A stretch of 64,000 bases of DNA from positions 26,461,993 to 26,525,992 of the forward strand of contig OY855908.1 in assembly GCA_963693305.1 (NCBI GenBank), in the 5' to 3' direction. Of the stretch, positions 16,208 through 30,904 are shown one piece after another. Source of the DNA: Meandrina meandrites (lineage: Eukaryota; Cnidaria; Anthozoa; Scleractinia; Meandrinidae). Numbering within the stretch: the stretch's first letter is position 1; each line of letters opens with the position of its first letter. The translations under genes and the position numbers were made by a program. The notes below the pieces were generated by a model. It searched no databases. It was not told the origin of the DNA and saw only the letters and a list, made by a program, of their open reading frames with translations.

Positions 16208-16230
16208 CCCTTACCAGAAAGGATAAACTA

Positions 16231-16470
16231 AAAGTATACTTTAAGTATACTGCAAGTATACTGTATCAGTATGAAGTACAGTTTAAGTATACTTGAATAG
16301 TACTGCATGCAATGAAGTATAATTGCAGTACAATTTGGAAAGTATACTTTAAGTATACTGCATATGAGAAAATAGAATTTACCTTGGTAAAGTAGGTTTT
16401 AAGTATATTTCAAATGTACTGCACAAACAGAGTTATTCTAATGCCACGAACAAAGTAGGAATTAAGTATG
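16231..16470. repeat. Left subterminal repeat array (AGTATACTT units)
   Basis: Six exact GTATAC-centred units, mostly AAGTATACTT or AAGTATACTG, some paired back to back, plus several decayed ones (AAGTATATTT, CAGTATGAAG). This is the layout of CACTA subterminal motifs, which bind the element-encoded protein in plant Spm. Confidence 0.85.
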
Positions 16471-16566
16471 GTGAAGAAGGCTGAAGCACTGCCTAAAAAG
16501 ACAGTGAGTAATGCCATCAAAAAAAAAAATTCAATCAAAAAAAAAAAGATAAACTCAAATCTTATA

Positions 16567-16626
16567 ATACCAATAAATAAAATAAATAAATAAATAAATA
16601 AATAAATAACTAAATAAATAAATAAC

Positions 16627-16669
<43 letters not shown>

Positions 16670-16671
16670 AT
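16567..16671. repeat. (AAAT)n microsatellite
   Basis: AAAT tetranucleotide run with two AACT interruptions, inside the left arm of the CACTA-like element. Confidence 0.9.
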
Positions 16672-16894
16672 GTTGGGGCACCAACATGGCAGCCGGAAAT
16701 CAAAGAAAACATCTGACACTCACTTTTCCTATGGAAGTGACTGCTCTTTTATTTTTATTGCTAAAACATACCTGCATACACATGTTCCCCAATACCTTTA
16801 AAAAGACAAAAGGATTTAAAAGAAGACCTTTGTTAAAGCATGACAGCTTTGCCACTCCGTTTTTAAGATGTCATGTATGGCAGAAATCTTGAAT

Positions 16895-29600: not shown

Positions 29601-29914
29601 AAATAGACAGTGACAACCAAAAAATCATTAAAACACAAGTTTACTGTCATTGTTATGAGATGCTGTGATTCCTTTCCAAACAGTTTTCACAGAAATAATG
29701 TAACATATGTAAATGGAGTTATGCAAATTTCTCATGGGGCTACTGTGTATTGATTAATGACGCTTTTTTCTTCTTTCCCTCAGATTTTGCTGTGAAAGAA
29801 GGAGCGAAGCTGTCTACAATAAAGCAAGCCCTCAGGAACAAAATTAGTTCCATCACCACAAGGGCAAATGGATGGCAGCCTTTGAGAAGGCTGCCATCTG
29901 ATGAGTTTGACTAA
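23691..29914 (+). CDS. BEN-domain protein of the CACTA-like element (512 aa, 6 exons)
   Basis: Exons 23691-23754, 24965-25102, 25752-26690, 27279-27346, 27571-27769 and 29784-29914; all introns GT-AG, phases 1-1-1-0-1, stop TAA. Residues about 21-67 are a compact hydrophobic module (VYSLVQFVDDGILAICTM...GDGYYLCTVMF) seen ahead of BEN domains. A long Lys/Glu coiled coil of KAEKEKEKAEKEKK-type repeats follows, then an acidic Ser-rich linker, three repeats of the motif GGKRPR/GEKRPR, a CQKCDEY motif, and the BEN domain at the C terminus (GRGVYLYEDH...AACFLLSCFYKNNELVGKNLTG...STIKQALRNKI). BEN domains bind DNA, often palindromic sites. Lying between the CACTA termini and head to head with the transposase, it could be an accessory DNA-binding factor or a captured host gene. 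Confidence 0.85.
23790..24566. repeat. Tandem direct duplication, about 390 bp per unit
   Basis: Units about 23790-24175 and 24188-24566 share TTAGTTGTTCGTTTC, TGGCGGGCTCGCACATAA, GATCGTTTTACTTTC and TATGATTAAAGAATGCATTG in the same order. Lies in intron 1 of the BEN gene, just downstream of the shared promoter. Confidence 0.85.
28162..28791. mobile_element. TA-flanked MITE (630 bp) with an internal hairpin
   Basis: TA duplication (28160-28161 and 28792-28793) and inverted ends CCATATTTTCTCAATTAAAC and AATTGAGAAAATATGG, as in Tc1/mariner-type MITEs. The interior has its own hairpin near 28368-28440 (TGGGTGCCAGAGGGTTTTTT). Lies in the last intron of the BEN gene. Confidence 0.8.
29205..29430. 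repeat. Interspersed repeat (GTCAAATCCCTATTAAG...GAGGTTCCACTGTAT)
   Basis: A degenerate inverted-repeat element with repeated GAGGTTC and TTAAATTGAGG blocks, of the type left by mariner MITEs. No coding capacity. Confidence 0.45.
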
Positions 29915-29929
29915 TCGGACAACTTTAAC

Positions 29930-30350
29930 TTTTTTCTTCATTATCAGAGGATGTTTTCTAAAGGGTTGACTTGTTTTTATCCTTTCCAATTCCGTGCACT
30001 GATGAGTCGCTGTCATGAGTTCTTTCATTTGCATTTCGGTTGCTTCTGCAGATCGTACCACATCTAATGCTTTCTCTAGTGTAAGGTCTGGCACCCTGAG
30101 TAAACGTTCCCTTGTTTTTGTGTTGTTTATACCAAGTACAATTCGGTCCTTTATGAGAGAGTTCTTCATTGTTCCAAATTCACGTTTCACAAAGCTTTCT
30201 TAATATCGTTACGTACTGATCGATACTTTCGCCGCTTTCTTGGCCTCTTGAGAAGAATTTGTATCTTTCGTAGCTTACATTTTTCTTCGGTTCACAATGT
30301 TCCTCAAATTTCAACAGTACCTTTTCAATTTTTATTGCTGCTCTTGCTTT
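29930..30350 (-). pseudogene. LTR retrotransposon gag fragment
   Basis: Minus-strand reading KVLLKFEEHCEPKKNV, YERYKFFSR, ESIDQYVTILRKL, then after a frameshift EFGTMKNSLIKDRIVLGI, RERLLRVPDLTLEKALD and SAEATEMQMKEL. This is the capsid-like pattern of Gypsy-type gag proteins. It has no LTR or pol and lies 16 bp past the BEN stop codon, inside the CACTA-like element. Confidence 0.65.
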
Positions 30351-30634
30351 TTGTCATTGATTGAAACATAACACTTTATGTCCTTTCGTTATTAATTGGA
30401 TAGATTGCAACTTTTAAAACATGTTAAGACAAAACTATGATTAAGTTAATATTTAGTGAAAAGGCAGTTAAGTCTTCTTACAAAATGTGATTAGTAAAAT
30501 GTTTGTGACTTTAATTATAAATAAACAATTATTGGCCTGAGCATATTGAAACCGTGCAACTTCTGTTATAGCTAATTAATTCAATCTGTATTGATTGGCA
30601 CATGATCTTATTAATTTCCAGTGATTACTACTAC

Positions 30635-30890
30635 AGTACAAGTATACTTTTAGTATACTTACTGTGCTGCTAGTACTGTGGCGTTTTAATGTCAAGTATA
30701 CTTTAAGTATACTGCAGAGTAGATTTTGAGTATACTTAAAGTATACTTTTGGGTGTTCCAATTTAAGGTGGGTACAAGTATACTACAAGCATACTTTAAG
30801 TAGCTATTTAAAGTATACTTAAAGTATACTTTAAGTGTACTTTTGCAGTATACTTTAAAGACAGTATTGATACACTTAAAGTATACTTAA
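30635..30890. repeat. Right subterminal repeat array (AGTATACTT units)
   Basis: Eleven exact GTATAC-centred units plus variants (AAGCATACTT, AAGTGTACTT), several in tandem pairs such as AAGTATACTTAAAGTATACT. Denser than the left array. Confidence 0.85.
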
Positions 30891-30904
30891 TTTTGGTAAG
30901 GGTT

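Follow-up and report, generated by a model that had tools for sequence, protein, structure and literature searches.

Does a transposon in the genome of the scleractinian coral Meandrina meandrites encode, next to its transposase, a second protein that recognizes the element's own ends? This question is raised by the element E1, which lies at 16208..30902 of the window analyzed here (a stretch of 64,000 nucleotides; contig OY855908.1, positions 26,461,993 to 26,525,992 of the forward strand; coordinates below are those of the window). In an initial annotation, E1 was described as a CACTA-like transposon with a transposase gene, a BEN-domain partner gene and palindrome arrays at both ends. We consider it likely that E1 is a two-gene, presumably cut-and-paste Transposase_21 transposon (CACTA-like, CMC), whose BEN-type partner would bind the palindromes in the ends and help the transposase. 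The strongest evidence beyond the initial annotation is the one-turn phasing of the repeats in the element ends, together with the recurrence of the gene pair in other families.

The extent of E1 was defined by terminal inverted repeats, the flanking TT/TT and nine uninterrupted target sites:

16208..30902, whole element E1 (14,695 bp)
16206..16207, left target-site duplication, TT
30903..30904, right target-site duplication, TT
16208..16216, plus strand, terminal inverted repeat CCCTTACCA (9 bp, exact)
30894..30902, minus strand, terminal inverted repeat CCCTTACCA (9 bp, exact)

When the flanks of E1 were joined with a single TT (199 nt), nine uninterrupted matches were found elsewhere in the genome, eight with 98–100% identity (one of them from base 4 on) and one with 89%; two of the empty sites were 100% identical. 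Because the joined flanks occur uninterrupted at nine places, the boundaries and the 2-bp duplication are established, and the element is real as first delimited. The insertion is probably young, since its target is a repeat with near-identical copies. E1 interrupts an open frame that resumes across the insertion, and the right-hand portion of this frame has a weak likeness to the RNA-binding domain of L1 ORF1 (Transposase_22, 13.5 bits, below the cut-off). Note that CCCTTACCA alone is not enriched genome-wide (per strand, 1735 and 1543 matches, vs 1548 and 1514 with the reversed sequence as control).

Two genes are arranged head to head in E1, and both spliced models are open, with no stop:

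18403..23540, minus strand, transposase gene (exons 23540-22643, 22001-21731, 20976-20864, 20081-18403; 986 amino acids; Transposase_21)
23541..23690, 150-bp gap between the two ATG codons, presumed from the sequence to be a two-way promoter
23691..29914, plus strand, partner gene (exons 23691-23754, 24965-25102, 25752-26690, 27279-27346, 27571-27769, 29784-29914; 512 amino acids)
25752..26690, plus strand, partner exon 3, with a Lys/Glu-rich stretch, GGKRPR-type repeats, and a terminal C-x2-C and short coiled coil (by eye)
27571..29914, plus strand, partner exons 5-6, BEN-type domain (by profile comparison and relatives)

These models, which are predictions with GT-AG introns and splice sites predicted from the sequence, agree with the earlier description of two intact multi-exon genes of 986 and 512 amino acids read outward from 150 bp. 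The transposase matches PF02992 (Transposase_21) with 34.4 bits (cut-off, 28.6). D363, D468, C487-x2-C490, H724-x3-H728 and E748 (E1 numbering) are invariant in five aligned transposases, the catalytic D and E residues being assigned by pattern, and a C251/C254/C266/C271 cluster is common to the five compared transposases. Acceptor 20081 was preferred over 20030 because the alignment fits it (KGVHVQ vs EGATVQ in E4, an element described below). A composite microsatellite (ATTC-type, then AGTC-type tetranucleotides) occupies 20460-20730 in the last transposase intron. Antisense to the last BEN exon is an open frame of 139 amino acids (29780-30199, minus strand) that appears gag-like by eye; its first 89 residues, searched against Pfam, had no match at E ≤ 0.1.

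The genome search for further transposase/BEN pairs that the initial annotation had proposed revealed three more families. Searching this genome with the transposase yielded 81 match rows, and the upstream side was read at eight places, the window included. The nearest relatives of the E1 transposase were 48%, 41% and 41% identical. The head-to-head transposase/BEN pair was found at five of the eight places, which represent four families; in the three besides that of E1, the pair includes a BEN-type exon and the transposases are 32–44% identical to that of E1. Pairwise identity among the transposases of E1, E2, E4 and E5 is 28.7–51.6%. Note that E2 and E3 were chosen for a nearby BEN match; without these two and the window, the pair occurs at two of five places. 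The results support the conclusion that the pair recurs across a group of elements and is not an accident of one copy.

E2 (C7) and E3 (C3) are copies of one 10.6/11.3-kb element with identical ends, CCCTTGCAAAA. Their three main aligned blocks are 98.7%, 99.5% and 97.7% identical, about 0.9 kb is present in E3 and absent from E2, and both copies have the BEN exon in the head-to-head gene. E3 is flanked by AA/AA and E2 by TT/TC. The middle exon of their partner gene contains in-frame coding repeats of about 123 bp, which align in several registers between the copies and may differ in copy number. E4 (C5) and E5 (C1) also have head-to-head genes; in these, a BEN-type exon follows a long middle exon that has C-x2-C and, by eye, a coiled coil at its end. 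E4 is 11,427 bp long, with ends CCCGTAGGAAACC and CCCGTACGAAACC and flanks TT/TA, and E5 is 11,445 bp long, with ends CCCGCACAAAACG and CCCGTACGAAACG and flanks CA/CA; the transposase frame of E5 is interrupted. As for the other places, only a first exon, close to that of E5, was found in the 5 kb read at E6 (C1:43.6 Mb), and E7 (C5:31.2 Mb) was left unscored for the pair because its N-terminal exon scores no better than shuffles. No partner was found in the 8 kb read at the 48% transposase relative (C7:18.69 Mb), whose upstream side is seemingly interrupted by another element; by eye, long open frames there (L077:815-4677, minus strand) are similar to a protein-primed DNA polymerase B.

The identification of the E1 partner as a BEN protein agrees with profile comparison and with its relatives, whereas the Pfam BEN model (PF10523) matches neither the E1 partner nor those of E4 and E5, which qualifies the call. 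The E2 partner passes PF10523 (32.4 bits vs a cut-off of 23.2), and the BEN exons of E2 and E3, at 30.4 bits each in the genome-wide search, pass as well; P0002, a relative of the E1 partner, gave 14.4 bits, below the cut-off. In profile comparison, the E1 partner matches BEN with a probability of 94.8. Alone, the E4/E5 BEN profile reached a probability of 83.4 (20 columns), compared with 0.4 or less for 20 shuffles of it; a direct comparison with the E1 profile gave only 12.0. The assignment for E1 is based on profile-profile comparison and relatives, one of which was also folded by prediction; the last 160 residues of the E1 partner matched no PDB sequence at E up to 10. These comparisons support its designation as a putative BEN-type protein. 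The nearest named relative is from Porites lobata, on which the scope "in animals" used below rests. The N-terminal exon was also considered as a domain common to all partners; this was not supported, since those of E1, E2 and E7 score no better than shuffles against E4/E5/E6.

Does the partner move with the element? The two copies E2 and E3 demonstrate this for their family. For E1, a genome-wide search with the partner at E < 0.01 gave, beyond the exons in the window, only C1:29.52 Mb (two exons, 77% and 68% identical at the protein level); another four rows were weaker, with E values of 0.06–0.84. The DNA at C1:29.52 Mb is 86.6%, 88.8% and 90.1% identical to E1 over three main blocks, and because the match includes intron and 3' DNA, this locus is a decayed sister of E1. 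Sister copies lacking the BEN gene combined with a single-copy host gene, named in the initial annotation as contrary evidence, were sought and not found, the matches elsewhere at E < 0.01 being the two exons of the decayed sister. A search with the right end of E1 recovered itself (one full and two internal minus-strand matches) and, elsewhere, a partial match on C8 and short end remnants on C3 and C12, in which the first palindrome is preceded by CCCTTACCA and by a close variant of it. BEN domains are numerous in the genome (30 PF10523 matches), and the element might have captured its BEN gene from the host by chance or landed next to it. We consider this very improbable, as the gene lies inside the inverted ends of an element whose target is uninterrupted at nine other places, its only relative at E < 0.01 matches in intron and 3' DNA as well (86.6–90.1%), and three other families have the pair too.

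If the partner belongs to the element, what would it bind? Both ends of E1 contain palindrome arrays:

16232..16410, AAGTATACTT-type palindromes arrayed near the left end (repeat period strongest at 11 bp)
30640..30888, AAGTATACTT-type palindromes arrayed near the right end (repeat period strongest at 11 bp)

Our recount reproduced the six and eleven GTATAC cores first reported for the ends (6 in the left and 11 in the right 400 bp) and gave 2 in the other 13.9 kb of E1. Neither the 300 dinucleotide-shuffled versions of the ends nor 300 pairs of interior windows reached a total of 17 for any palindromic 6-mer. When one mismatch is allowed, AAGTATACTT occurs 24 times in the window, 21 of them within the two ends of E1, vs 3.7 expected; adjacent palindromes counted in this way are exactly 11 bp apart in 9 of 19 spacings. 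The ends of E2 have the motif TTTCTAGAAA, and TCTAGA occurs 1 and 7 times in the outer 400-bp ends of E2 and E3 and 2 times inside. In E4, with the motif GCAGATCTGC, AGATCT is present 4 and 4 times in the ends (0 inside) and CTGCAG 6 and 3 times (4 inside). The ends of E5 contain AGATCT 2 and 3 times and TCTAGA 3 and 2 times, with 0 inside. Top palindrome counts exceed all 300 shuffles in E1, E3 and E4; that of E2 was reached once and that of E5 three times.

The spacing was also analyzed independently of any motif. Each of the ten ends read (two per element; eight independent, E3 being a copy of E2) had 10 or 11 as its strongest repeat lag, among lags of 5–39 in the outer 300 bp, compared with 37 of 607 control windows. 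Of 500 shuffles, none beat the height of the lag peak in six ends, 1 did so in two ends, 5 in the left end of E3 and 12 in the right end of E5.

The position and form of these arrays bear on two other readings. BEN proteins have been described mainly as chromatin and transcription factors (PMC11472053), and TnpA of the plant element Spm also has a suppressor role at the ends it binds (PMC2613891); the E1 BEN protein might likewise be such a factor, acting against silencing or controlling its own promoter, and bind the palindromes for that only, with no role in cutting. We regard this as unlikely because the E1 arrays occupy the tips of the element, some 7 kb away from the gap between the genes at its center, and the motif is nearly absent inside E1 (17 GTATAC in the 800 bp of the ends vs 2 elsewhere). 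Alternatively, the transposase itself might bind the arrays and the BEN protein have another task: DNA-binding surfaces may exist on the transposase, given the shared C251/C254/C266/C271 residues and C2H2-like motifs seen by eye on the E2 transposase strand. This appears slightly less probable still, as palindromic arrays with one-turn spacing suit an oligomeric symmetric binder, several BEN domains bind palindromes, and the short non-palindromic terminal inverted repeats would be a more natural transposase site.

A BEN protein acting at the ends alongside the transposase would resemble the system of plant CACTA elements, so far as the classification of E1 allows. Canonical CACTA/EnSpm elements have CACTA...TAGTG termini and a 3-bp duplication (PMC4158355). 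The termini here are CCCTTACCA in E1, CCCTTGCAAAA in E2 and E3, CCCGTAGGAAACC in E4 and CCCGCACAAAACG in E5, and the duplications are of 2 bp, exact in E1 (TT/TT), E3 (AA/AA) and E5 (CA/CA) and inexact in E2 (TT/TC) and E4 (TT/TA). Because E1 lacks both the CACTA termini and the 3-bp duplication, we call it CACTA-like; it is not a CACTA element in the strict sense, although the Transposase_21 domain is present. E1 does have the two open reading frames and the subterminal repeats at both ends that characterize CACTA elements. The CMC/CMCT clade comprises EnSpm, Mirage, Chapaev, Transib and Plavaka, with duplications of 2–5 bp (PMC12730594), a range that includes the 2 bp of E1, and the C(2)C and H(3-4)H residues of this clade are found in E1 between the second D and the last E. 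Unlike most CMC/CMCT elements, E1 does not have 5'-CA..TG-3' termini, and the available text of that source makes no mention of an accessory BEN gene.

In Spm, TnpA recognizes the subterminal repeats and is needed along with TnpD (PMC2613891). Like En/Spm and other plant CACTA elements, E1 combines a tnp2/Transposase_21 transposase with a second, non-catalytic product, which is DNA-binding there and predicted to be so in E1, and has many short subterminal repeats at both ends, which differ by family as the binder differs (PMC2613891). Unlike En/Spm, E1 has ends that begin with CCC, its duplication is one base pair shorter and its partner is BEN-type. In En/Spm the products come from a single unit by alternative splicing, whereas E1 has a separate gene for each, placed head to head. 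The likeness of the partner to TnpA is one of proposed role. With these differences, E1 may well work like a CACTA element.

The partner can also be compared with known BEN factors (NAC1, BANP, Insv, Bsg25A, BEND3), with which it shares a C-terminal BEN-type domain; its coiled coil precedes this domain, as does the N-terminal coiled coil of BANP. BEN factors are known readers of short motifs, several of them palindromic: NAC1 binds ACATGT, and Insv and Bsg25A bind CCAATTGG (as cited in PMC7764960), whereas NAC2 is reported on a non-palindromic site (PMC7764960). Unlike these factors, the E1 partner has its gene in a transposon with palindrome arrays at the ends, and its sequence is distant enough from the Pfam model to escape it. 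A BEN-like fold also reads transposon ends in DBD1 of the bacterial Tn3-family TnpA (PMC9579193); there, the domain is part of the transposase and not a separate protein, and the parallel is by description only. No report of a BEN partner in such elements was found among the papers listed by full-text searches of open-licence PMC.

We infer that the E1 BEN protein would bind the end arrays cooperatively and assist the transposase, as TnpA does in Spm. Full-length BANP is an oligomer (PMC11472053), and with a coiled coil beside its BEN domain the partner would be an oligomer as well. Its BEN domains could sit on successive palindromes, and since the sites are one turn apart, the oligomers would lie on one face of the helix. 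They may cover both ends and mark or pair them, the transposase reading the short CCC... terminal repeats and cutting at the tips of the element. In each family the BEN domain would fit the motif of that family's ends, and this fit would confer specificity.

Beyond E1, we see roughly even chances that two-component transposons whose BEN end-binders coevolved with their own one-turn-phased arrays form a standing class in animals, that cnidarian BEN genes are largely transposon-borne, and that host BEN chromatin factors may descend from end-binders. A BEN partner in the role proposed for E1 would be a solution independent of plant TnpA, apparently outside plants, that uses a domain known mainly from chromatin regulators, and it would provide a concrete hypothesis for the origin of animal BEN proteins, in line with the BEN-like fold of Tn3. 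Because several families with different motifs share one genome, the pairing of BEN sequence and palindrome offers a natural experiment on BEN specificity.

Among the 30 PF10523 matches, only those at E2 and E3 lie within 10 kb of a listed PF02992 match; such co-localization is a weak method because it misses BEN domains split by introns, that of E1 included. Besides E2 and E3, 12 of the 30 BEN places fall into five sets of dispersed repeats (L013/L014/L015, L011/L012/L022, L010/L017, L031/L036 and L034/L035), which are 95.1–99.4% identical within a set and have no listed transposase match within 10 kb. The sets have the appearance of a second class of mobile elements that carry BEN domains. 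L011/L012/L022 have arrays of TTCGAA palindromes about 1 kb 3' of the BEN domain with a 21-bp period (two turns); a lag of 21 bp is also strongest in L010/L017 and L031/L036, and not in L013-L015 or L034/L035. A nested repeat-rich stretch inside E4 (L075:1900-3120 approximately, C5), with CCGTTCGAACGG-type repeats, resembles the arrays of this second class. Finally, just left of E1 in the window (14775-15956, plus strand), a frame of 393 amino acids has a weak GIY-YIG match (19 bits, below the cut-off) and appears Penelope-like by eye.
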